The translations under genes and the position numbers were made by a program. From positions 1 to 41,714 of the forward strand of contig JAQTSI010000004.1 in NCBI GenBank assembly GCA_028711365.1: a stretch of 41,714 bases of DNA. Reading direction: 5' to 3'. Below, piece after piece: positions 29,241-41,587 of this stretch. Each line of letters starts with the position of its first letter. Within the stretch, counting starts at the first letter, position 1. The DNA comes from Methylococcaceae bacterium (GTDB lineage Bacteria; Pseudomonadota; Gammaproteobacteria; Methylococcales; Methylococcaceae). The notes below the pieces were generated by a model that was not told the origin of the DNA, did not search any database, and worked only from the letters and a program-made list of their open reading frames with translations.

Positions 29241-29324
<84 letters not shown>

Positions 29325-29334
<10 letters not shown>

Positions 29335-29352: not shown

Positions 29353-29362
29353 CATTTTAGCC

Positions 29363-29414
29363 GGGGTTACACGGGGGTTACACCATGGCGGAAAACAGGG
29401 CAGGGTGTTACCCC
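29363..29414. promoter_or_regulatory. Left integrase arm-type sites
   Basis: GGGGTTACA occurs at 29363-29371 and 29374-29382, and an inverted near-copy TGTTACCCC at 29406-29414, all between attL and the first gene. The same motifs occur beside the integrase at the other end (40039-40112), as expected for the arm sites of one integrase. Confidence 0.7.
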
Positions 29415-29422
29415 GCTTCCGG

Positions 29423-31066
29423 TCAATAAACCGTGTGGCTGATCCGGCTTCCACCATCAGCGATTTCAGGATCGCTAAGCCCGCCCGTGGCGATATGCGC
29501 AAACCGTCCACTAGGGCGCTCGTTTCCATTGGCCCCCTGAACTTCCACGTTCATACTTCTTTGCCGCTCCCGGCTCCCCAGCGGTTCAAACAGCGGCGGC
29601 GCTTCCTCGATTGCTTGCGGTTGCCTGCGAATGATCGGGCTTGATACGGTGGGAACGGCTGTCGAAACCGTTTGCGCTTCACGCGCGACTATGGGCGGCT
29701 TGCGGGTCTTCCTGGTGGGTGCTTTGCGTGTGGTCGGTGCGTCTGGTGAGGACTGCGCGCCTGGTGCTTTCGTGGACGGCGATGGTGGTGCGTTACTGCT
29801 CAACAGTCTGTCAACTGGCTGCGACGGTTCTTCCAGGGGTGCCCCCACCGGCTGGCCCGCTGGTGCTGGCTCATTCGCAAGCTCCCGCTGGTAGCGCTCA
29901 AACCGGGCTTGACGGTCAGCCAGGCCGTTTGATCCGCCGTTGATCCGCCTTGTGACTTCGCCCACATCCCCGCGCCTTGCCGGTGCTCCCAGGTTTCTAG
30001 TCCGCCAATACCAGGTAGCAATCCGCGCGGCGGTCGCGGGCTCTTCGGCCAGCTCAGGACTTCCCACAAGGTCTATCCCCAAGTCACGGCCAGCGGCTTC
30101 GTAGTTCGCTCGCCCGGTCAACTGGGTGAAACCTCGACCGCGATACTTGAAACCGTCTCCCGGCTCGGTGTTGCCCATGCGCCCGTCGTACATTAGATTT
30201 CCGACAGCTTCCGGTCCTTCATCAATCGCGGCTTCCACGGCAGGCCGTCCAGCTTTACGGGCTGTCTTCGACACTTCCATGATCCGATCCGCGCTGCGAT
30301 AGGCGAATGATTCCCGCATGTGGGTGAAGCCCGAAGACTCATGCTCCATCTGGCTCAGAAAAACCGCTTGCTCGGTCGGGTCTTTAATTCCAGCTTGGTG
30401 CATTTCGGCAATCAACGCTGACTTACGCTCGGCGGATGTCCCGCTGACTGGCTGTGTGGCTTCCACGGGTCGCGCGGGTCGGGCGGTCGGCCTACCCCTG
30501 GACGATTCACGCGGTGGTCGGGTTTCGCTGTCCCCGGCGGTCGGTGTATCGTATCGTATCGCCGATTTCGTATCATATCGTACCGTATCGCGCTGTATCG
30601 TATCGCCCTTGCCGTCCAGGGGTTTGCCATCGAAGCCTTGCAGCTTGATGTCTGGGTGAAAGCCAGCTAGCCAGCGGGAAACCATCGCGCCTATGCCAGC
30701 GCCCGCTACAGCACCAGCAGGACCGGCTGCTAGACCGCCCAGGCCAGCGCCAATCCCCATTGCGGCAATCGATGGTGCCGGTTTCACTGGTGGCTGCGGT
30801 GTGGCTGGATCTTCCAGCATGTCACGCGGCTTGGGTGTTGTTGCAGTGATAGCGGCGTACAGTCCAGCAATCGCTGCGGCAATACCAGCCAATGGTGCCA
30901 TTCCAGCGCCCCCAGCGGCGGCTTGCGGCTTGTCCCGGATGTCTTCCAGCGCTTTGACACGCGCCTTTGAAAACGTCGTTTCCTCTTTGCGAAATCGTGA
31001 AATCTCGCCAGCGGTGCGTCGAAGCCAGTTTGCGTCTCGCTGTACGTTCATACGTTCGTATGTCAT
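29423..31066 (-). CDS. GH19 (chitinase-like) endolysin domain protein with hydrophobic N-terminal region
   Basis: A 547-residue protein predicted to cut peptidoglycan or chitin-like glycans. I start at 31066, where ATG overlaps the preceding stop (ATGA). A basic helical N-terminus (1-45) is followed by an Ala/Gly-rich hydrophobic stretch (about 48-77), a Gly-zipper-like hydrophobic segment (about 100-135), and a linker containing repeated R-Y-D-T. The GH19 lysozyme/endolysin-type domain (about 212-400) has the catalytic-type H242-E243 in Q-M-E-H-E-S-S-G-F, M-Y-D-G-R-M-G-N and the substrate block Y-R-G-R-G-F-T-Q-L-T-G-R-A-N-Y. A Pro/Thr-rich tail ends the protein. There is no classical signal peptide. 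The fusion of a membrane-active-looking segment to a lysin suggests delivery or lysis. Confidence 0.8.
   Translation of the reverse strand: MTYERMNVQRDANWLRRTAGEISRFRKEETTFSKARVKALEDIRDKPQAAAGGAGMAPLAGIAAAIAGLYAAITATTPKPRDMLEDPATPQPPVKPAPSIAAMGIGAGLGGLAAGPAGAVAGAGIGAMVSRWLAGFHPDIKLQGFDGKPLDGKGDTIQRDTVRYDTKSAIRYDTPTAGDSETRPPRESSRGRPTARPARPVEATQPVSGTSAERKSALIAEMHQAGIKDPTEQAVFLSQMEHESSGFTHMRESFAYRSADRIMEVSKTARKAGRPAVEAAIDEGPEAVGNLMYDGRMGNTEPGDGFKYRGRGFTQLTGRANYEAAGRDLGIDLVGSPELAEEPATAARIATWYWRTRNLGAPARRGDVGEVTRRINGGSNGLADRQARFERYQRELANEPAPAGQPVGAPLEEPSQPVDRLLSSNAPPSPSTKAPGAQSSPDAPTTRKAPTRKTRKPPIVAREAQTVSTAVPTVSSPIIRRQPQAIEEAPPLFEPLGSRERQRSMNVEVQGANGNERPSGRFAHIATGGLSDPEIADGGSRISHTVY
30546..30604. 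repeat. Degenerate pentanucleotide (GTATC) repeat inside the GH19 gene
   Basis: GTATC recurs in a 5-base step: three perfect units at 30546-30560, then further exact or one-mismatch units between 30570 and 30604. A unit of five bases is not a multiple of three, so slippage would shift the frame. The encoded linker shows a matching five-residue period (D-T-x-R-x). Confidence 0.6.
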
Positions 31067-31830
31067 TTTTTCCGCATCGCCTTCCAGTCGTTCCGATCCA
31101 GCGCCGCCAGACTGCACAACGTCAAACCCAATGAAAGTTCAACCAGATTGCCATCCTTCGTGATCGGCCCTCCCAGGGGGTAGGTGACGTTTTCGATGAC
31201 CAGTGGGTAGTAATTTCGGCCCTTGTACGTCATGGCAATGAGCGATGGCGACTTTGACGGTAACAGCGCTTCGATCGGACTTTTCTTACCCTTGACGGCA
31301 TCCACGGCGTTACCCAGCAATGAAGAATCGCGCGCAAGCTCGGCAGGTAGCGCCCAGGCCATGATTTGATCCGATGGCCGTTCGACTTCTTCGAACGTAT
31401 CGCGCCAAGCTCGAAATATCGCAGTCGCCTGAATCTTGACCGGTTGCATACCGACGAAAACCTGGACGCTATTCAGTTTTGTGATGCCGGTTCGACCGAC
31501 AAACTGCTGAAGAACCCCGGTGGCCGAATCTCCCGATGATCCAGTCAGCTTCGCAAAAGCATCTACGGTCGGCTGAAACGCTCCCGATTGCAGCATTTGA
31601 AAAGCAGTCGGCGCGGCTGATTCCAGCGATTTGCCTTCAAACGGGCTTTGCCAGTTCAGCGAAACGTCCAGGCTGCATTCGGTCAGCGGTGCCAACACGG
31701 TGACGGCTTCATTCAATCGCTTGCCTTGTCTGTCAACCTCGAAAAACTTGGCGATTAGGTTGGTGTTCAATCCGTCCCATCGGGATGAAAGTGGCCTATT
31801 AAGACTGGCAAATGGGTTTTCTGCGCTCAT
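31063..31830 (-). CDS. Hypothetical protein of 255 residues, possibly structural or tail-associated
   Basis: Not recognised. I use the ATG at 31830 rather than a TTG five codons upstream. The protein looks mixed alpha/beta and soluble. It begins N-P-F-A-S-L-N-R-P and has a W-Q-S-P-F-E-G-K-S-L-E block near residue 62. Its C-terminal part, Y-K-G-R-N-Y-Y-P-L-V-I-E-N-V-T-Y-P-L then L-S-L-G-L-T-L-C-S-L, has the strand-turn-strand look of phage baseplate or tail proteins. That is a resemblance only. It shares an ATGA overlap with the GH19 gene, so the two products are probably made together. Confidence 0.65.
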   Translation of the reverse strand: MSAENPFASLNRPLSSRWDGLNTNLIAKFFEVDRQGKRLNEAVTVLAPLTECSLDVSLNWQSPFEGKSLESAAPTAFQMLQSGAFQPTVDAFAKLTGSSGDSATGVLQQFVGRTGITKLNSVQVFVGMQPVKIQATAIFRAWRDTFEEVERPSDQIMAWALPAELARDSSLLGNAVDAVKGKKSPIEALLPSKSPSLIAMTYKGRNYYPLVIENVTYPLGGPITKDGNLVELSLGLTLCSLAALDRNDWKAMRKK

Positions 31831-32016
31831 GGTCGATATAACCAAACGTTATAAATAATCAATTGTTTATCACACTTTGTGAAGATAACCGCGAGTGAAC
31901 TAACCATGGTTCACTCGTGGTTCACCATGGTTCACTCGCGTTTCACGAAGTGCATGGCGCTTATTACAAAAGGTTATGAACCATTCGAGAAAAAAGCGCC
32001 TACGGTGGTTGCGAAA
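31831..32016. promoter_or_regulatory. Operator-like region upstream of the GH19 module
   Basis: The motif GGTTCACTCG occurs at 31909-31918 and 31929-31938, its inverse CGAGTGAAC at 31892-31900, and shorter GGTTCAC at 31919-31925, with ACCATGGT palindromes between them. An AT-rich stretch (about 31835-31880) between these repeats and the ATG would suit a promoter. This is the only gene-free DNA between the 51-residue RHH gene and the two-gene module, so a repressor site is the simple reading. Confidence 0.55.
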
Positions 32017-32688: not shown

Positions 32689-32901
32689 TCAATGTGTTGT
32701 TTCGTTTTCATTCCCGATCCAGGCAAAAACCTGATCGCGTAGGGTTTCGGTCAACTCTTTTAGTTCGCAAGCGGCCTTGTCGATTTCCAGGATAAGGGTG
32801 CTCACGTCGGTTTGCTGACTCGCGGTTTCCAGGCACTCACGCGCCACGGTGAGCCTTTCCTGGACGGTTGCCGGGTCAATTCCAAGCTCATTCAGCGTCA
32901 T
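32689..32901 (-). CDS. Hypothetical small helical protein (70 residues)
   Basis: Not recognised. It starts at the ATG at 32901, overlapping the end of the HTH gene by 14 bases in another frame, so translation is probably coupled. The product is acidic and helical (T-V-Q-E-R-L-T-V-A-R-E-C-L-E-T-A, then L-I-L-E-I-D-K-A-A-C-E-L-K-E-L). It could be a partner of the neighbouring regulator, which is a guess from position. Confidence 0.55.
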   Translation of the reverse strand: MTLNELGIDPATVQERLTVARECLETASQQTDVSTLILEIDKAACELKELTETLRDQVFAWIGNENETTH

Positions 32902-33514
32902 CAGCTTGCGCCTCTGTCGCAGGCGAATGCCTGTCAAATATTGTCGGCTCAACCGCTTGAGTTTTTGCAAACCTCCGCATGGCGGACATGGCAACCTGTG
33001 CGGCCAGTTGTGCACGCTCGACCGATGAAAGTAACGGTGAGCCTGCCGCCATATCCTGAAATTCAGGGTTAAGCTCCATGAATCGATCCAGGGCCACTTT
33101 GATTGACTCAACTCCAGCCGGTAGGGTTTCGACGGCGAGAACACACGCGGAAATTTTGTTATGCAGCTTCCGGCTTTCGTTTACAGTCTCGGCCAGGCCC
33201 TCCATGTGTTGCCTGACGAGCGAAACGTAAACATCTCGCTCCCGGCGAGCCTCTAGGCACAATTCCCAATCATCGGGAGACAATCCATACAGCCAATCGA
33301 TGCTGACCGCGTATCGCTCAGCGGCCCGCAGGACCACCCAGGGGGCTGGCGCGTCCTCAACGCTTTGCTCGATTGCAGTAAGCTCATCTCGCGTGACGCC
33401 GAGCAGGTGCGCTCCCTCATCGGGGTTGAAACCACAGATTTCGCTGCGGGCTTCCCGAAGCCGCCGGCAGATTTTTTGGGTGACTTTGCGCTTTTCGTGC
33501 TTTGTTGGGGTCAT
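32888..33514 (-). CDS. HTH (XRE-like) regulator with C-terminal helical domain
   Basis: Protein of 208 residues. Residues about 15-80 resemble an XRE-type helix-turn-helix, with a phage-repressor-like recognition region (A-H-L-L-G-V-T-R-D-E-L-T-A-I-E-Q) and the common follow-on motif A-E-R-Y-A-V-S-I-D-W-L-Y-G-L-S. The remainder is helical and may oligomerise. Its start overlaps the upstream gene (ATGA). A role in controlling the element's replication or lysis-like genes is plausible from position but not shown. Confidence 0.72.
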   Translation of the reverse strand: MTPTKHEKRKVTQKICRRLREARSEICGFNPDEGAHLLGVTRDELTAIEQSVEDAPAPWVVLRAAERYAVSIDWLYGLSPDDWELCLEARRERDVYVSLVRQHMEGLAETVNESRKLHNKISACVLAVETLPAGVESIKVALDRFMELNPEFQDMAAGSPLLSSVERAQLAAQVAMSAMRRFAKTQAVEPTIFDRHSPATEAQADDAE

Positions 33515-33972
33515 GCCGTCCTCCAGCGTAGCCCATGCACCACGTCGCCAATGACCTCGACGGGCAGCGCAAGCCCACGGACGACCGCATCAAACCGCTT
33601 CATGAAAGCTCGCGGCGTTTCGTTCGGGTAATTTTCGTTCGGGTAATCAACGAACTCGATAAACCCCTGATTCACGTCAAACAAGGGCAATCGTCCTCTG
33701 CGGTCAAGCTTCATCCTTTCAATCACGAACGCGGCCAGGCGGTCGGCTGCGGCGGTTGGCCGCGCTCTGTGCAAGTGGTCGCGGGTTTGAAAGCCATTTA
33801 AGAAATCAAGCAGGGGTGCCTTGTGGCGGCTCAGCAGGTGGAGCATCCCTGCGTGCCTTGGGAGGGTGTCTGAGCCGATTTCGATTCGCCCACGGTTTGG
33901 GTATAGCTCGACGCGCGCCCAAGCTGCTTGGCGAAGCGCTTGGATAATGTCTTTTGTGGTTGATTTGCTCAT
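33511..33972 (-). CDS. TubC N-terminal docking-like domain protein (153 residues)
   Basis: First gene of the five-gene operon that follows the origin-like region. Residues about 12-60 (L-R-Q-A-A-W-A-R-V-E-L-Y-P-N-R-G-R-I-E-I, then L-L-S-R-H-K-A-P-L-L-D-F-L) resemble the TubC N-terminal docking fold often found on accessory proteins of mobile elements. The remainder is unrecognised. A tandem Y-P-N-E-N/Y-P-N-E-T repeat near residue 112 comes from a 15-bp tandem duplication (about 33618-33647). Function unknown. Confidence 0.6.
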   Translation of the reverse strand: MSKSTTKDIIQALRQAAWARVELYPNRGRIEIGSDTLPRHAGMLHLLSRHKAPLLDFLNGFQTRDHLHRARPTAAADRLAAFVIERMKLDRRGRLPLFDVNQGFIEFVDYPNENYPNETPRAFMKRFDAVVRGLALPVEVIGDVVHGLRWRTA

Positions 33973-34106
33973 GTTTTTTTCCCCATGGTGGGTGGGTTTG
34001 TTGACGTGAGCAAAAGTATGCGCCCCTGCGCACCCGGTCCTCGGTCAGATTTTCCTTATTTCGTCGGTCGGCGGTCGATTCTTCCAGGGGGCAAATCGGC
34101 AGGCAC

Positions 34107-34129
34107 AAAAAAACCCGCTTGAAGCGGGT
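34107..34129 (-). terminator. Rho-independent terminator between the origin region and the small-gene operon
   Basis: On the minus strand ACCCGCTT and AAGCGGGT form a tight hairpin followed by seven T. It would stop transcripts that run through the origin-like region from the primase side. Confidence 0.75.
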
Positions 34130-34143
34130 CGGTGTGATGAAAT

Positions 34144-34471
34144 GATTGGTAGAGGAACCTCTACCAATCTATCAATCCTGAAAGCCACGGCTGGCGCGGG
34201 TTTCAGGATTGGTAGATTGGTAGATGTCTGATATAAGATGTTTATCTTTTTAAGGGTTATTTCTCCCTTAAGAGCTTTTATTTTTAGGGGGGGGTCAGAC
34301 TGGGGGGGGGCTGTAGTGAACCTCTACCAATCTACCAATCATTTTTTTGCCCTGAAACCCACGGCTGGCGCGGGTTTCGGATTGGTAGATATTGGTAGAG
34401 GTTCCTCTACCAATCATTCAGAATTTGAATGATTTCATAGACATAGGTAAGTGTAGCGGTTATCTACCAAT
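34144..34471. repeat. Origin-like array of ten ATTGGTAGA iterons with palindromes
   Basis: The 9-mer ATTGGTAGA occurs in direct orientation at 34145, 34208, 34216, 34381 and 34391, and inverted (TCTACCAAT) at 34160, 34323, 34331, 34406 and 34463. Two pairs form near-perfect palindromes (34144-34169 and 34391-34414), and two pairs are head-to-tail with a one-base overlap. A second repeat, CCACGGCTGGCGCGGGTTTC, occurs at about 34185-34204 and 34360-34379. AT-rich DNA (34230-34286) and two G-runs (34287-34294, 34302-34310) lie in the centre. Adjacent to the PrimPol gene, this looks like a replication origin. Confidence 0.75.
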
Positions 34472-34493
34472 GGCGCAAGTGGAAGGTGTATAT

Positions 34494-37085
34494 CTATCCA
34501 TCCAAACGCCGGACAAACTTGGTTGAAACCAGCAGCGGTGGCCGGTCTGCCTTGGTTGATTCGACTTCAACGATGTCGCGGTCCGCGATCAGGGTTTGAA
34601 GCAGATCAAACCGCTTTTCTTGCGAAAGGTTTTTGAAGGCCCAGCAGTCAGACGCGAGCCTTCCACGGCCAATGCCTTTTTTCCCCTTTCCTTCAATGAA
34701 GGCAAGAATCTTTTGCATCACACTCTGCTTGCCGTCATCGCTTTCAGCTTTGGCAACGGCATCCAGTATTTGCGCGCGTGATCGTGCAAGGTACTGGCTC
34801 GCCCAGCGAATATGCCCGGCATCCACAGTGGGCGATGACGGGCGCTCGCAAATGGCCAACAAGCTTGCCAGTTTGCGCAGATGGCTGGCGTGCGCTGCGC
34901 AAAGATTTCGCTCCAGGCGGCTGCGCGTTGGGCGCTCGTCGTCCCATTCCGCTCTGGGATAATGCTCATCAAAGTCTATGCCAGTGGAAAGCGCTACGAT
35001 CCGGCAAGTGGGCTCGTGATCGCTGGCATCGGGATCAAGCAAGATGTCGTCACCAATGTCCACTGTGGGCGGTCGAATCGCAGCGAACAGGTCAGCAAGC
35101 CCCCCTGGAAGCCCTAAGCGCCTGTCGGGCGTTGAAAGAGGATCGCCCTTAGTGTCATCTGGGGTAAAGTAGAAAATCGTCTGCTGGACAGTGCCTTGCG
35201 CGGCCTCAGCACCACGAAACAATGGCCCGGTTTGGTTCTTCGCAACCACGGCAAGCTGATTCAGGCAAGGCTCAAAAATGACCGGCTTCCCTGGAAGCTT
35301 GCGGCCCTCAAGCTGGGAAAGGTTAAGTTGCTGCTTTCCGTCCAGCTTGATTTTTGGGCTGTCGAAATGCTCGGCGGTCAGTGCCAAAACCTTGCGAATG
35401 AGTCCCGACGGTTGCCGGCGGCAAAACTCAAGCCGCCCAGCATGGTCGGTTTCTACTCTCAAAACTACGGGGTTTTCAACCAGTTCGGTATAGAACTGCA
35501 TCGGACTGTCGCACGACTGGCCAATAAAGAGCCTGTCCAGTCCAGTTTCATCCAGCGCCTTCTGAATTGCGTTTTTCAGCGGTGAAACGTCATTGACATA
35601 ATCCGCTATTAGCGCCGCGAACAGGTTCAGATTATCGCCCGAAACGGTTTTGTATCTTCGACTTGCCACGGTCGCCAGGGTGACGATCGCCGCAAGCTGG
35701 CAGGCTTCCATGGACCGCACGCCAGAAACGGCTGAAATCCAATGTGTCAAATCGCGCACAGCCTGGACGGGGCAAATCCCTACCGATGGTTCAACCGGCT
35801 CAAAGGTTTCATATCGAGGCTTAGGTTGTGCTTGTCGCATTTCCTCTTCATGCTCAAAAACAATCATTTGCGCGCGCTGAAGCTGGCTGTACTCCGCGTC
35901 CAGGCGGGCATCTTCCTTCAAGCGGTAAACTTGATCCGTTACCGACTTGGCTACGTCGTTTGGAATGCTATCCTGCTGCGTTTCCCCCGTGGCCGGAACT
36001 TCCTGTTTTGGTGGCCTCGGTTTGCCATCCCCCCATGGTCTAACATCCCCCCTGGACGGTTCAGGATCGGCTTTCGGCGCTGCCTCTTCCACGTCCCCAT
36101 CGCTTAAATCGACCGACTCAAAAACTGGCTTTGGCGTCCATCCATAGGCCAGCGCTTCCTTGAAGATCGATTCAAGGTTTCGTCCTCCCCCATTGAACGA
36201 TTGCCATTTAGTGACGCAGGCTTTCGCGCTGTACTTTGCGCTTCGCTGTGACCAGGTGTCCCAAAGCTCGAAACCGGCTCCTTCGTCGATGGTGGACAGC
36301 GCCATGCCGGTGTTGATCCATGAGTGATAGTCATCGGCGTCAATATGCTCAAGCGCCGACCGAAGCTCTTCCAGACGGTATGGATCGACGTAAACCGTGC
36401 CCGTGCTTTCTGTGAGGTCGATGGCATGACCGGCTTCTGGTGCGGTCCAAACCAGCTTTAGCAACCATTCCGGGCAGTCCGAGATAGCCTGTCCTTCCAG
36501 GGGATCGGATGAACCTTCCCATTCATAAGGACCGTTCTTGTTACGCGAAGGCCAGACGCAAATGTGATTTTTGGTCTTGATTTCGAGCCCTTTGTAGTGC
36601 TCGACATAGCCCTTGAACTGGCCTTTCGGTGCGCGAAACAGATAGTGAAACCCGCCACTTCCGGTAATCTGAACGGCGGTATCAGGAAGACTTCCATGCC
36701 TCACCTGCAAGTCGGCCAGGTCATCATCGTTAAGGTAGTTCCGTGGATCAACGTCCAGGACGATCAGGATTTTCGACTCTTCGCCGGGGATCGGCTGACC
36801 GCAAACTAACCCGATGCCGGCAACCGGTCGCTTCTTCCACCATTCCTTGATTTGAACTGGATCGGTTGATCCCTCAAGGTAGGATCGAGCGTATAAAGGA
36901 TGCTTGCCTTCGGAGCGGCACCCTGGATCATTACAGGAGCATTTGCCGGTCGGACCAAGCCAATTAAGCGGAATGATTTTCAATCCAAGGGCGGCGTATT
37001 GCAGCGCGGCATCGCGCATAACCCCATGGGCGGGTAAGCCGTTTGGCTGGAATTGTTGAGGACTTGCGTGTTCTTGTTTTGGCAT
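34494..37085 (-). CDS. PrimPol-type replication protein (bifunctional primase/polymerase with C-terminal DUF3987-like region)
   Basis: Element replication protein of about 863 residues. I start at the ATG at 37085; a TTG five codons upstream is open. The N-terminal prim-pol domain (about 25-225) has a cysteine cluster K-C-S-C-N-D-P-G-C, the catalytic acids D111-V-D113 in V-L-D-V-D-P-R-N, and H147 in G-S-G-G-F-H-Y-L-F. A PriCT-2-like domain follows (about 250-325, R-S-A-L-E-H-I-D-A-D-D-Y-H-S-W-I). After an acidic, Pro-rich linker comes a region of about 370 residues reminiscent of DUF3987. I could not find a clean helicase Walker A in it. This suggests priming at the nearby iteron array with host helicase help. 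Confidence 0.85.
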   Translation of the reverse strand: MPKQEHASPQQFQPNGLPAHGVMRDAALQYAALGLKIIPLNWLGPTGKCSCNDPGCRSEGKHPLYARSYLEGSTDPVQIKEWWKKRPVAGIGLVCGQPIPGEESKILIVLDVDPRNYLNDDDLADLQVRHGSLPDTAVQITGSGGFHYLFRAPKGQFKGYVEHYKGLEIKTKNHICVWPSRNKNGPYEWEGSSDPLEGQAISDCPEWLLKLVWTAPEAGHAIDLTESTGTVYVDPYRLEELRSALEHIDADDYHSWINTGMALSTIDEGAGFELWDTWSQRSAKYSAKACVTKWQSFNGGGRNLESIFKEALAYGWTPKPVFESVDLSDGDVEEAAPKADPEPSRGDVRPWGDGKPRPPKQEVPATGETQQDSIPNDVAKSVTDQVYRLKEDARLDAEYSQLQRAQMIVFEHEEEMRQAQPKPRYETFEPVEPSVGICPVQAVRDLTHWISAVSGVRSMEACQLAAIVTLATVASRRYKTVSGDNLNLFAALIADYVNDVSPLKNAIQKALDETGLDRLFIGQSCDSPMQFYTELVENPVVLRVETDHAGRLEFCRRQPSGLIRKVLALTAEHFDSPKIKLDGKQQLNLSQLEGRKLPGKPVIFEPCLNQLAVVAKNQTGPLFRGAEAAQGTVQQTIFYFTPDDTKGDPLSTPDRRLGLPGGLADLFAAIRPPTVDIGDDILLDPDASDHEPTCRIVALSTGIDFDEHYPRAEWDDERPTRSRLERNLCAAHASHLRKLASLLAICERPSSPTVDAGHIRWASQYLARSRAQILDAVAKAESDDGKQSVMQKILAFIEGKGKKGIGRGRLASDCWAFKNLSQEKRFDLLQTLIADRDIVEVESTKADRPPLLVSTKFVRRLDG

Positions 37086-37100
37086 GTTTTGGATTTCCAA

Positions 37101-37393: not shown

Positions 37394-37630
37394 TCAGACG
37401 GTGGGAAGCAGGACGTATCGCGCCACGCCTCGATGACGTTTTCCGCGCCTGGTTTCGGCTCTAATGCGCTCTGTTGCGATGCTGTGGCCATCCAGGCGAA
37501 GCTCCTTGACGCGGGCTGCCGGCATCATGATGTCAAGCTGTTTTCGCGCTTCCACGGTTGTTACAGGCCCTTGGCGCAAGCGGTCAAGCAAGCGCTCTCG
37601 CTGACTGGATGAACTGTTCTCATTGCTCAT
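37394..37630 (-). CDS. Small winged-HTH-like protein (78 residues)
   Basis: I start at the ATG at 37630, which overlaps the stop of the AlpA-like gene (ATGA). The core R-E-R-L-L-D-R-L-R-Q-G-P-V-T-T-V-E-A-R-K-Q-L-D-I-M-M-P-A-A-R-V-K-E-L-R-L-type pattern fits the HTH_39 family common in phages and islands. The C-terminus is basic (R-A-E-T-R-R-G-K-R-H-R-G-V-A-R-Y) and could bind nucleic acid. It is co-transcribed with the AlpA-like gene. Confidence 0.72.
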   Translation of the reverse strand: MSNENSSSSQRERLLDRLRQGPVTTVEARKQLDIMMPAARVKELRLDGHSIATERIRAETRRGKRHRGVARYVLLPTV

Positions 37631-37860
37631 GCCGCCTCCATTTGCCCGGTGTGTGACATGATGCGGCCATCGATGAAAGCCAAAAGGTCGCCCGCGCGGT
37701 AACGCACAAGACGCCCGATTTTGACGAAACGCAGCGCAGGATAACGTCCGGTGGAGCGCCAAACTTCCAAGGTGGCCTTTTGAACGCCCAAGCATTGGGC
37801 GGCGGTTTCAGTGTCAAGCATGTGGCCGGCGGGAAGTGCTCGAAGATCGATAGTTTTCAT
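37627..37860 (-). CDS. AlpA-like/MerR-type HTH regulator, possible excisionase
   Basis: A 77-residue DNA-binding protein with the pattern L-D-T-E-T-A-A-Q-C-L-G-V-Q-K-A-T-L-E-V-W-R-S-T-G-R-Y-type helix-turn-helix, then R-F-V-K-I-G-R-L-V-R-Y-R-A-G-D-L-L-A-F-I, typical of AlpA/excisionase proteins (HTH_17). GAGG lies upstream of the ATG. Such proteins act as excisionases or activators of integrase genes in P4-like elements. GTTAAG motifs lie upstream of this gene and again between the integrase and the right attachment site, which would suit a common binding site. Confidence 0.8.
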   Translation of the reverse strand: MKTIDLRALPAGHMLDTETAAQCLGVQKATLEVWRSTGRYPALRFVKIGRLVRYRAGDLLAFIDGRIMSHTGQMEAA

Positions 37861-38343: not shown

Positions 38344-38541
38344 TCAGGCTGCTTGCTTGTCCTCAGTCATGGCAGGATAGATACCCTCCTTTTTCGCGTC
38401 CAGGATGGTCATTTCAACTAAATCCCCATCCGCCGCATAAGCCATATTGATATACCAGTTATGTGAAACCTCGCGGACTATGGGCTTGTCGTTGAACCGC
38501 ATATATAAAATATCATCGTCGGGGTAATAGATCGTTTTCAT
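38344..38541 (-). CDS. DUF2283 family protein (putative antitoxin-like partner)
   Basis: A 65-residue protein with the DUF2283 pattern Y-Y-P-D-D-D-I-L-Y-M-R-F and a later D-G-D-L-V-E-M-T-I-L-D-A-K-K-E-G. Its ATG overlaps the upstream DUF4258 stop by one base (TAATG), the coupling typical of two-gene toxin-antitoxin modules. DUF4258-DUF2283 pairs are widespread in mobile DNA and are regarded as toxin-antitoxin-like. Activity has not been shown for most. Confidence 0.8.
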   Translation of the reverse strand: MKTIYYPDDDILYMRFNDKPIVREVSHNWYINMAYAADGDLVEMTILDAKKEGIYPAMTEDKQAA

Positions 38542-38798
38542 TAAATTTCCTCAAGTTGAAAATGGTGCATCACGGTCTTGATGATAAGGTAATCCTCCAG
38601 GACTGCCGCCGCACATATCAGGTTATCGCCGCGCCCTGGATAAGCTTTGAATATCCAAATGCGGGTATCATCTTTCTGTTTTGTCGTGCCGGTTTCGACC
38701 AGATCGAATAATAAATCCTCGGAAATACCCCGTTCAGCCATGCGCTCCTTGGCATGACGGGTTATGTGGATAGGCCGGTCAAATCGAAGACTATCCAT
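38541..38798 (-). CDS. DUF4258 family protein (putative RelE-like toxin)
   Basis: An 85-residue protein with the DUF4258 features I-T-R-H-A-K-E-R-M-A-E-R-G-I-S near the N-terminus and a later I-K-T-V-M strand, a small fold related to RelE/HigB-type RNases. Its start lies inside the end of the integrase gene (8-base overlap), so it is transcribed with the integrase. Together with the DUF2283 gene it may be an addiction module that keeps the integrated element in place. Function is inferred from family and context. Confidence 0.8.
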   Translation of the reverse strand: MDSLRFDRPIHITRHAKERMAERGISEDLLFDLVETGTTKQKDDTRIWIFKAYPGRGDNLICAAAVLEDYLIIKTVMHHFQLEEI

Positions 38799-40026
38799 GT
38801 TGGCGCTTTTGTTCCAGGCTGATAACCTCGGCAGTTTCCTTAATACCTGCCGACTTCAAAACGTAGTCGGTGATTTTCTGCATAGGATCGCGCAAGCGTT
38901 CCACGTTTGCCACGATGTAACCAGCGGTCACGTCCGCGCCATTGGCATGGTTCAACAGCCTCTTGAGGGCATAGGCGGGAATGTCCAGGCTTTCGGCTAC
39001 GGTGGCAAAGGTGCGGCGCAGATCGTGAATACAAAAGGAAACCCCGCTCGCCTTCTCGATTGCGGCTTGAGCGCATCGGAAATTGGAAACCCTGCGCCCC
39101 AGGTGGTCGGCAAAAACGAACTCGGACACGGTGACGGCCTTGCGCCGGGTGAACAGTTCGAGCAGGAAATCGGACAAGGGCAGGGTGTGGTCCCGGTGGT
39201 TCTTCGGGTCCACGATGGTGAAGGTCTTTCCGTCCATGTCCACATTCCCCCAGGTTAGCTTTAGGGCTTCCTGCCTCCTCAAGCCGGTCAGCAGCACGGT
39301 CATGAAGTAATCGCGCATCTCCGCGCCTGGTAGGGCCAGCACGGCGTTAACCCATGCGCCCAATTCATGCGGCTTGATGACGGTCTGCCGGCGGTCCACG
39401 CGATACCATGCCTTGGTTTGACTGAGTTTCCTTACCGGGTTCACGTCCACTAGGGGCTTTCCTTCGTCATCCTGGTACTCCGCTTGGGCGTAGTTGAACA
39501 GCGCCCGCAAGTAGCGCATGGCCAGGTTGGCGCGGGCTTCTGAATGGTCCTTGCCGTGCTTTGCGTGACGCTCCTGCACCATCGTTGGGGTAATTTTGTC
39601 CAGTGGCTTACTAAGCCAGTCGGCGAACGTTTCCTTTAGCGCTCGCTCCATGTCCGCGACGGTTGTTTTCTTCAAGTCCTTGCGGGCGGTCTGGTAGTCG
39701 ATGAACACTTCGGCCAGGGTTTTGGCCTTGATCTTAGTCAGCTTTTTCTCAGCCACAACGCTTTGCCCGCCCGCCAGTTTTGATATGGCTTCCAGGGCGC
39801 GGCGCTTGACTTGCTCGGGTGACAGTCCGGGATAGCGTCCCAGGGTTACACGCTCAGGCTTCTTGCCAGCCGGTCGCATGACGATGGAAAAGGTCTTGAC
39901 GCCGGTCGAACTGACGCGAAGCTCAAGCCCGGCGATGCCATCAAAGTGATAGATTGCCCGCTTTCCGGCGGGTGGAAGGGGAACGGCATCGATGGCCGCT
40001 TTGGTGAGTTTGATCGTGGTCGCCAT
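38791..40026 (-). CDS. int: Tyrosine-recombinase integrase with N-terminal DUF4102 arm-binding domain
   Basis: Integrase of 411 residues of the P4/DUF4102 class. Residues about 1-90 form the arm-type DNA-binding domain (L-R-V-S-S-T-G-V-K-T-F, then L-G-R-Y-P-G-L-S), followed by a core-binding domain and the catalytic domain. Catalytic residues visible are R250 (T-G-L-R), probable K275, H334-D-L-R337, H360 (L-N-H-A) and the nucleophile Y370 (A-G-Y-I-V). GGAG lies upstream of the start. The gene is 168 bases from attR and next to matching arm-type repeats, so it is the likely enzyme for this element. Confidence 0.95.
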   Translation of the reverse strand: MATTIKLTKAAIDAVPLPPAGKRAIYHFDGIAGLELRVSSTGVKTFSIVMRPAGKKPERVTLGRYPGLSPEQVKRRALEAISKLAGGQSVVAEKKLTKIKAKTLAEVFIDYQTARKDLKKTTVADMERALKETFADWLSKPLDKITPTMVQERHAKHGKDHSEARANLAMRYLRALFNYAQAEYQDDEGKPLVDVNPVRKLSQTKAWYRVDRRQTVIKPHELGAWVNAVLALPGAEMRDYFMTVLLTGLRRQEALKLTWGNVDMDGKTFTIVDPKNHRDHTLPLSDFLLELFTRRKAVTVSEFVFADHLGRRVSNFRCAQAAIEKASGVSFCIHDLRRTFATVAESLDIPAYALKRLLNHANGADVTAGYIVANVERLRDPMQKITDYVLKSAGIKETAEVISLEQKRQHG

Positions 40027-40038
40027 GGTCTACGCTCC

Positions 40039-40112
40039 GGGGTTACAGTCTGATCCGGGGTTACACCGGGGTAACACGGTGGGTTAAAAACTGGCTAATT
40101 TCGTGTAACCCC
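40039..40112. promoter_or_regulatory. Right integrase arm-type sites
   Basis: GGGGTTACA at 40039-40047 and 40057-40065, GGGGTAACA at 40068-40076, and the inverse TGTAACCCC at 40104-40112 lie between the integrase start and attR. They match the sites at the left end and probably also overlap the integrase promoter, allowing self-repression. Confidence 0.72.
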
Positions 40113-40193: not shown

Positions 40194-40259
40194 GGACTCA
40201 TAATCCCTTGGTCCTCCGTTCAAATCGGAGAGGGCCCACCAAGAAAATCAAAGGCTTAC
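40194..40259 (+). repeat. attR: 66-bp direct repeat of the 3' part of tRNA-Ile2
   Basis: Exact copy of 29269-29334. It lacks the 5' half of the tRNA (acceptor and D arms), so it is not a working tRNA gene. Confidence 0.93.
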
Positions 40260-40405: not shown

Positions 40406-41587
40406 TTACTTCCTTGCGATGGTTATCGGCAAAACCGTGGTGGCTTTCGGTTTCGCGGAGTGGTAACGATCTTCTAGCTTATCCATTGCGGCGCCGATAT
40501 GTTCACCGTTCTGATGGGCGTACCTTACGACCATTTGCAAGGTCTTGTGTCCGCTGATCCGCTGGACGGTGGGCAAATCGACCCCGGCTTGTACAAGGTG
40601 CGTGATGGCCGTATGCCGCAAGGTGTGGCGGACAATCTCCTTCGGGTCCATGCCGGCGGCAGTGACAACCCGGCGGAATTGCTTTTCGATGTTCATCACG
40701 TGCCCACTGGCGGACGTTTTCGAGGGAAACAGCCACACTTGCCCCGATTCAGCCGTTTCGACATACTCCCGCAAAAAATCAGCCAGTCCGGCGGTGATAG
40801 GCTGTTCCCTGGCTCCGGCTTTGGCTTGTGGAATGAAAATCACGCGGCGGGCAAGGTCGATGTTTTCAAGCCGGATGCTGAGTATTTCCATTCTACGCAT
40901 GGACGTTTCCAGGCCGATGACGATGAACGGGTAAACGTCGGGGCTTTGATCGAAACGGGCGGCTTCCAATAATCGCGCGGCTTGGTCGATGGTGAGGTAG
41001 GTTATTCGTCCGGCTTGTTCCCTGGCCCGTTTGATGTGGGCGGACTTGTGGTCGATCCATTTCCAATCAACGGCTTTGGTTAGTAGGTGCGAAAGCGTGG
41101 CAAGTTCCCGGTTCAATGTACCCGGCGTGATACCGGCTTCAAGGCGGGCTTTCTTGTAGCGTTCCACGTCGAAGCCTGCGATCTTTGCCAGCGGCTTGCT
41201 TCCGAAGAATGGCCCCAAATGATCCCGGATATGCTGGGCTTTCTTCGCAAGATTCTTCCCCCCTTCCTCTTTCGACTTCTCAAGATATTTCGCGGCGGCT
41301 TGCTGAAAGCCCAAGGCAACCTTCCGACCTTTGGGTAGATTCAAGCGGCCTTCGCGGGCTTCCGTGCGTAGTTTCTCAATGACGTTTTCAGCCTGTTCAC
41401 GGGTTACGCCTGCGGATTCCATACCGATGACGCGGTGCACGCGCTGCCCGTCCACCATGATATTGATCTTCCATCGTGCATCGCCGTTCGCCGTGCGTTC
41501 AAAGCTGATGCCGTGTTCGATGATCGTTTCCCCTGGCTTGGCCTTGCGGCAGGCATCGCGGGTGAGTAGGGCAAATTTAAGAGCCAT
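40406..41587 (-). CDS. Second tyrosine-recombinase integrase
   Basis: Integrase of 393 residues, of a different subfamily from the first one: its N-terminus is not a DUF4102 domain. The catalytic residues are all visible: R231 (E-T-S-M-R), H321-T-L-R324, H347 (S-G-H-K-T) and the nucleophile Y356 (V-R-Y-A-H). It sits 146 bases beyond attR, pointing at it, as expected for the integrase of a second element inserted at the same tRNA. The body of that element would lie beyond the right edge, starting with an IS1595-type insertion. Confidence 0.93.
   Translation of the reverse strand: MALKFALLTRDACRKAKPGETIIEHGISFERTANGDARWKINIMVDGQRVHRVIGMESAGVTREQAENVIEKLRTEAREGRLNLPKGRKVALGFQQAAAKYLEKSKEEGGKNLAKKAQHIRDHLGPFFGSKPLAKIAGFDVERYKKARLEAGITPGTLNRELATLSHLLTKAVDWKWIDHKSAHIKRAREQAGRITYLTIDQAARLLEAARFDQSPDVYPFIVIGLETSMRRMEILSIRLENIDLARRVIFIPQAKAGAREQPITAGLADFLREYVETAESGQVWLFPSKTSASGHVMNIEKQFRRVVTAAGMDPKEIVRHTLRHTAITHLVQAGVDLPTVQRISGHKTLQMVVRYAHQNGEHIGAAMDKLEDRYHSAKPKATTVLPITIARK

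Follow-up and report, generated by a model that had tools for sequence, protein, structure and literature searches.

According to the available text of PMC6092414, the origins of PICIs lie 3' of the primase/rep gene and consist of two iteron sets placed around an AT-rich region, and one such origin has been shown to work. In the plasmid pRN1, a region that immediately follows the PrimPol gene on its 3' side is required (PMC4234260), and winged-helix C-terminal domains have been proposed as origin binders in AEP proteins (PMC5862659). The locus described here is a dense repeat array at 34144-34471 of the window (the whole 41.7-kb stretch of DNA that was analysed). It lies directly 3' of a PrimPol gene and, judged from its sequence, is very probably the replication origin of a 10,925-bp integrated element.

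The integrated element and its candidate initiator

The element is bounded by a perfect 66-bp direct repeat, the att-to-att distance being 10,925 bp. The left copy (attL, 29269-29334, plus strand) comprises the 3' part of a tRNA-Met gene (29241-29316) and the following bases, and attR (40194-40259, plus strand) is identical, so that direct repeats at a tRNA 3' end occur together with an integrase, as in integrative elements. Every recognised gene of the element, integrase included, is carried by the minus strand, in the order integrase, DUF4258/DUF2283 pair, HTH_17, HTH_39, PrimPol, array, unknown proteins, PmgG-like and endolysin-like proteins. The tyrosine integrase (38791-40026, Arm-DNA-bind_3 and Phage_integrase domains) has an intact frame. 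Beyond it are encoded a 77-aa HTH_17 (AlpA/excisionase-like) protein (37627-37860), a winged-helix HTH_39 protein (37394-37795, with its real start probably inside the frame) and the 868-aa PrimPol, the candidate initiator (34494-37100). On the far side of the array lie the genes for a 153-aa protein of unknown function (33511-33972), which is the first gene beyond the putative origin, an Xre-like HTH protein below the Pfam cut-off (32888-33514), a PmgG-like head-morphogenesis family protein (31063-31845) and a protein with a GH19/endolysin-like domain (29423-31117). Given the perfect att repeats and the intact integrase frame, excision of the element is plausible, and the element looks like a satellite-type or prophage-derived island.

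Several other features accompany these genes. The DUF2283/DUF4258 gene pair at 38344-38798 possibly encodes a toxin-antitoxin system, and two tandem 21-bp repeats (ACCATGGTTCACTCGTGGTTC, 31903-31944) stand ahead of the PmgG-like and endolysin-like genes in an operator-like manner. Similar GGGGTTACAC repeats are located just inside both att sites (29361-29395 and 40055-40089) and are possible integrase arm sites. A second tyrosine integrase (40406-41587), just outside attR, probably belongs to a neighbouring element.

The PrimPol protein contains a Prim-Pol domain (residues 32-212) and a PriCT_2 domain (247-316), followed by a DUF3987-like ATPase fold. Its structure model, of middling quality (pLDDT 69), predicts a C-terminal winged-helix-like H-H-H-E-E order, and the best PDB match of the model is 6a9w, the PrimPol of phage NrS-1, with weaker matches to ORC/MCM-type AAA+ proteins. 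A Walker A motif (GxxxxGK[ST]) is absent from the DUF3987-like part of this protein and of three relatives (L153, L155 and L156); the ATPase-like fold nevertheless seems to be kept in these four PrimPols. Among the features of pRN1-type AEPs, Prim-Pol and PriCT_2 are present here, the winged helix is predicted and Walker A is lacking. The absence of Walker A makes self-powered melting of the origin doubtful, and melting may depend on a host helicase.

The repeat array and its relatives

Ten exact copies of the 9-mer ATTGGTAGA, five per strand, fall within 34145-34471, and none occurs in the rest of the 41.7-kb window; for the whole window 0.14 copies would be expected by chance, and 0 of 100 shuffles reach ten. 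An 11th copy with one mismatch is found at 34168-34176, and the first 350 bp past the PrimPol stop have a repeat-pair score of 197, where shuffles average 2.15. These counts reproduce the initial annotation, which had described ten copies in both orientations within about 330 bases as well as two palindromes; both palindromes are exact, comprise two iterons each and form the outer palindromic pairs on the left (ATTGGTAGAGGAACCTCTACCAAT, 34145-34168) and on the right (ATTGGTAGAGGTTCCTCTACCAAT, 34391-34414). Head-to-tail iteron pairs are also present, but they number four rather than the two first described (34160/34168, with one mismatch, 34208/34216, 34323/34331 and 34381/34391). The GC-rich block, given earlier as 20 bases, is indeed duplicated but longer, extending over 28 nt with 96% identity (34177-34204 and 34351-34378). 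On both sides of each block the iteron pairs point away from it, giving the arm order <- <- block -> ->. Within the blocks lie two copies of a core motif on the plus strand, AAAGCCACGGCTGGCGCGGGTTT at 34181-34203, inside the hairpin-capable stretch 34177-34207, and AAACCCACGGCTGGCGCGGGTTT at 34355-34377, inside the hairpin-capable stretch 34351-34379.

The spacer between the arms (34228-34319) is the candidate melting region and consists of an AT-rich part and two G-runs. The AT-rich character claimed for it holds for the 59 bp at 34228-34286 (75% AT), whereas the whole middle including the G-runs reaches only 58% AT. The G-runs of eight (34287-34294) and nine (34302-34310), both correctly recorded at the outset, are the two longest in the window. 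The PrimPol gene ends 22 bp from the last iteron, in agreement with the original placement directly downstream of the replication protein, and a terminator-like stem (34112-34130, minus strand) lies beyond the array along the direction of PrimPol transcription. The DnaA box TTWTNCACA is absent from the entire window, and a direct DNA search of the origin region against phages and plasmids returned no match. The GC-skew check that had been suggested was uninformative, with no clear turn of the element's skew at the array. As a lead only, the iteron ATTGGTAGA resembles the template site TTTGGTTA given for NrS-1 PrimPol in the available portion of PMC8718748.

Arrays beside other PrimPol genes were scored by comparing repeat pairs in two 350-bp flanks, one following the stop and one preceding the start, with dinucleotide shuffles (p<=0.01). 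The genomic set comprised 15 PrimPol loci, the window's own among them, from members of the window's class and mostly of its order; a significant array was present 3' of the gene in 13 and 5' of it in none. Among 46 non-redundant viral relatives the 3' side is significant in 22 and the 5' side in 3 of 40 (p=2.8e-5), the remaining 24 of the 46 being without a significant 3' array at the sensitivity used; neither the 15 loci nor the 46 viral relatives are phylogenetically independent. A search with the single protein for close PrimPol relatives yielded one weak match in the genome contigs and none in the viral contigs. The search for the array in related elements, proposed earlier, uncovered arrays of other sequence in the same place. 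Their repeats differ (GGGACGGAT, CCTAAGTTAC, CACGTCCCC, AGGTTACTT and others), although both orientations and the 3' position are kept, as expected for initiator-specific sites. In one viral relative (L180), two motif copies and inverted TGCCGACA repeats flank AT-rich DNA immediately 3' of the PrimPol stop. The 3' arrays of relatives, together with the precedents of PICIs, pRN1 and SGI1, make a replication origin by far the best reading; the position of these arrays 3' rather than 5' of PrimPol and the published PICI layout support the initial annotation on this point.

Other functions of the array are far less probable. An operator, at which an HTH protein of the element would control the genes beyond (33972 on) or the PrimPol operon, might be expected because HTH proteins are encoded nearby and iterons often serve as operators too. 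However, no sigma-70-like promoter was found at 33500-35000, the terminator-like stem separates the array from the next gene, the arrays of relatives stay 3' of PrimPol whatever gene comes next, and in other replicons the core motif accompanies replication genes, which together render this function improbable. An RNA function, as a folded 3' terminus of the PrimPol transcript active in processing, stability or copy-number control, would agree with the location between stop codon and terminator-like stem and with the strong single-strand folding of each arm (z about -8). It is nonetheless very improbable, as the repeats are strand-symmetric, the region has no match in Rfam, base-pair covariation is lacking, and the motif occurs also upstream of rep genes and inside a phage O gene. 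Equally improbable is that the array serves a phage satellite, the kind of element to which the PmgG-like and endolysin-like proteins could belong, in packaging or partition (as a pac/cos/parS-like site), since Pfam and PHROGs scans found neither a terminase nor ParB in the element, and the place 3' of the primase and the recurrence beside initiators fit an origin.

A 23-bp motif shared with other replicons

The core of the GC-rich block is, by its sequence, a motif common to unrelated replicons, a relationship missed in the initial annotation: AAASCCANNGMTGGCGYGGSTTT, of 23 bp, is found beside iterons in origins with unrelated initiators. These comprise at least seven kinds, namely Rep3, TrfA, RepA (ICE), lambda-O-like, Toprim, VapE and PrimPol. 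An exact 20-mer of the block occurs in one IMG/VR contig, beside iterons and a Rep3 gene, and BLAST located the block beside trfA in an 8-kb Azotobacter plasmid (A. chroococcum), adjoining the Rep3 gene in pLM12P1, and adjoining repA in ICEs (e.g. a Delftia ICE) that, from their gene order, we take to be Tn4371-like. The AAASCCANNGMTGGCGYGGSTTT pattern matches 28 stretches in IMG/VR and its reverse none. Sixteen of 17 non-redundant viral matches lie in repeat-rich DNA, as do 5 of 120 control windows taken from those contigs, and this test is not circular because the motif was removed before repeats were scored.

The neighbourhoods of the motif are diverse. It coincides with the stop codon of a PrimPol+PriCT_2+DUF3987 gene (L122), neighbours a Toprim_3 primase (L115) or a primase fragment (L117), and stands 170 bp 3' of a VapE-like helicase gene (L142). 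In two contigs (L119 and L123) motif and repeats are situated inside a lambda-O-like gene, in two others (L062 and L074) the motif is upstream of rep genes, and in Aeromonas plasmids it is placed between an AT-rich stretch and the TrfA iterons. In the genome that supplied the window, a second locus (L143, G000:C214, 2414-2436) has a single motif copy together with CCCCACT repeats, both located 3' of a primase-like frame of 726 aa.

In 301 genomes of the order, a search allowing one mismatch gave 26 motif places against 3 for the reversed control, about half of the 26 belonging to a MITE-like family. Across 398 genomes of the phylum, the exact motif was confined to the window's own class. One of the matching genomes (G144) coincides in coordinates with a Hydrogenophaga plasmid also found by BLAST, and the class is accordingly the Gammaproteobacteria as delimited by GTDB, with the NCBI Betaproteobacteria inside it. 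Outside the element itself this sample holds six exact places, of which five fall in one family (f110) and two (L173 and L177) are without iterons, and the association of motif and iterons is therefore strong but not absolute. A near-exact search in E. coli produced a single match, to a plasmid. No published description of the motif was found, which, given partial coverage of the literature, is weak evidence of novelty.

Several sets of matches were set aside. The 17-mer ACGGCTGGCGCGGGTTT alone gave 11 viral matches, most of them apparently by chance in coding sequence, and the longer pattern was used instead. Several plasmid BLAST matches (L077, L079, L081 and L083-L088) showed no sign of lying at origins and were treated as chance matches or as stretches without annotation. 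Matches beside GGGTGCGTTTAAACAAACGACA repeats belong to a MITE/IS-like repeat family rather than to origins. This family of the order, with GGGTGCGTTTAAACAAACGACA ends, carries a motif look-alike (AAAGCCAC..GTGGCTTT) and was seen at nine places (L093, L096, L097, L099, L101, L103, L105, L107 and L110).

Among 23 motif variants the invariant columns are A2, CCA 5-7, G13, C15, G16, G18, G19, T21 and T22, conservation statistics that are partly circular because the pattern was derived from the first matches. The pairs of the potential stem show no covariation, two of the seven being mostly mismatched, and several copies, L074 and L123 among them, fold no better than shuffles; the stem-loop was accordingly rejected as the conserved feature, and the motif is conserved as sequence, not as helix. 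Priming by DnaG at a CTG within the motif was likewise rejected, as some copies have another triplet there (ATG in 7 of 38). In the oriV of the Tn4371-like ICEs, whose RepA proteins are about 88-98% similar, the motif occupies one site but in opposite orientations in two groups (L076, L174 and L176 versus L078, L082, L175 and L178), with its flanks (ATCGGCCGC... and ...TTCCCTAACTTA) kept. Its direction relative to rep is thus not critical, which argues against a strictly strand-specific priming signal.

What these replicons have in common is the host, and a host replication factor is therefore our best guess for the reader of the motif. We tentatively propose that AAASCCANNGMTGGCGYGGSTTT represents an undescribed origin module of gammaproteobacterial (GTDB sense) mobile replicons with unrelated initiators, read by such a factor. 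In the main alternative, which we consider somewhat less likely, no host factor is involved and the motif would be an ancient mobile or hairpin-forming unit that has spread from origin to origin. Inversion in place between two groups of one ICE family is what a recombining inverted repeat would produce; however, only about 23 bp are common while the flanks are unrelated, the motif is nearly always beside iterons, and it is kept although the initiators differ.

Proposed replication and comparison with known systems

For replication of the element we infer the following course. Integrase and excisionase would excise the element between the att repeats, and several PrimPol copies would then bind the ATTGGTAGA iterons, probably via the winged helix at the C terminus. 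Occupation of both arms, each of the form <- <- motif -> ->, may open the AT-rich stretch between them, whereupon the PrimPol domain, the host or both would make primers for the host replisome to extend. The two 23-bp motif copies may serve as sites for a factor common to many replicons, most likely a host replication factor.

The array offers a candidate, testable origin for a large and mostly uncharacterised class of PrimPol elements, and its short motif recurs in origins with at least seven initiator kinds. If one host factor reads the motif, many plasmids, ICEs and phages would depend on that factor and would share it as a weak point. In addition, the motif could help to locate origins in sequence data.

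Compared with described systems, the locus combines familiar features in a distinct manner. P4-type satellites employ an alpha-type initiator with a Toprim primase, whereas the initiator here is of the Prim-Pol and PriCT_2 type. NrS-1 supplies the best structural match (6a9w) and the template site TTTGGTTA, but its PrimPol is a phage replicase, and the accessible part of PMC8718748 describes no iteron array in connection with the site. Iteron plasmids of the Rep3/TrfA type and RepA ICEs likewise have iterons beside an AT-rich stretch with the same 23-bp motif between, but use unrelated initiators, and their direct repeats, of about 20 bp, are longer than the 9-bp repeats that occur here in both orientations. 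A DnaA box beside the iterons, which characterises DnaA-assisted iteron origins, is lacking here. The oriV of SGI1 resembles the present locus as an iteron origin of an integrated island, immediately downstream of rep and with an AT-rich flank, but its RepA_C initiator, 17-bp iterons and putative DnaA box (PMC7433901) have no counterparts here.

The crenarchaeal plasmid pRN1 and phage BIP-1 encode a PrimPol with a C-terminal winged helix, as predicted here, and possess, immediately 3' of that gene and beside a terminator, a stem-loop region that is essential (PMC4234260), a placement similar to that of the array. However, pRN1 has no iterons, and its 100-nt stem-loop is kept in structure rather than in sequence (PMC4234260), whereas the present element has iterons and a motif kept in sequence.

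PICIs (SaPI and Gram-negative; PMC6092414, as far as the available text extends) share with the element the small att-bounded form, the origin immediately 3' of primase/rep and the iteron sets flanking an AT-rich region, and the Gram-negative PICIs also share genes running in one direction. The element differs in its PrimPol/PriCT_2 initiator and in having no identified PICI-specific gene or terminase, while a PmgG-like protein is present; in that available text, moreover, PICI origins are not described with the 23-bp motif. The element is not filed as a PICI, as such an assignment would rest on layout and gene direction, with no PICI-specific gene identified. By analogy, the layout of the putative origin is a variant of the published PICI-type layout.
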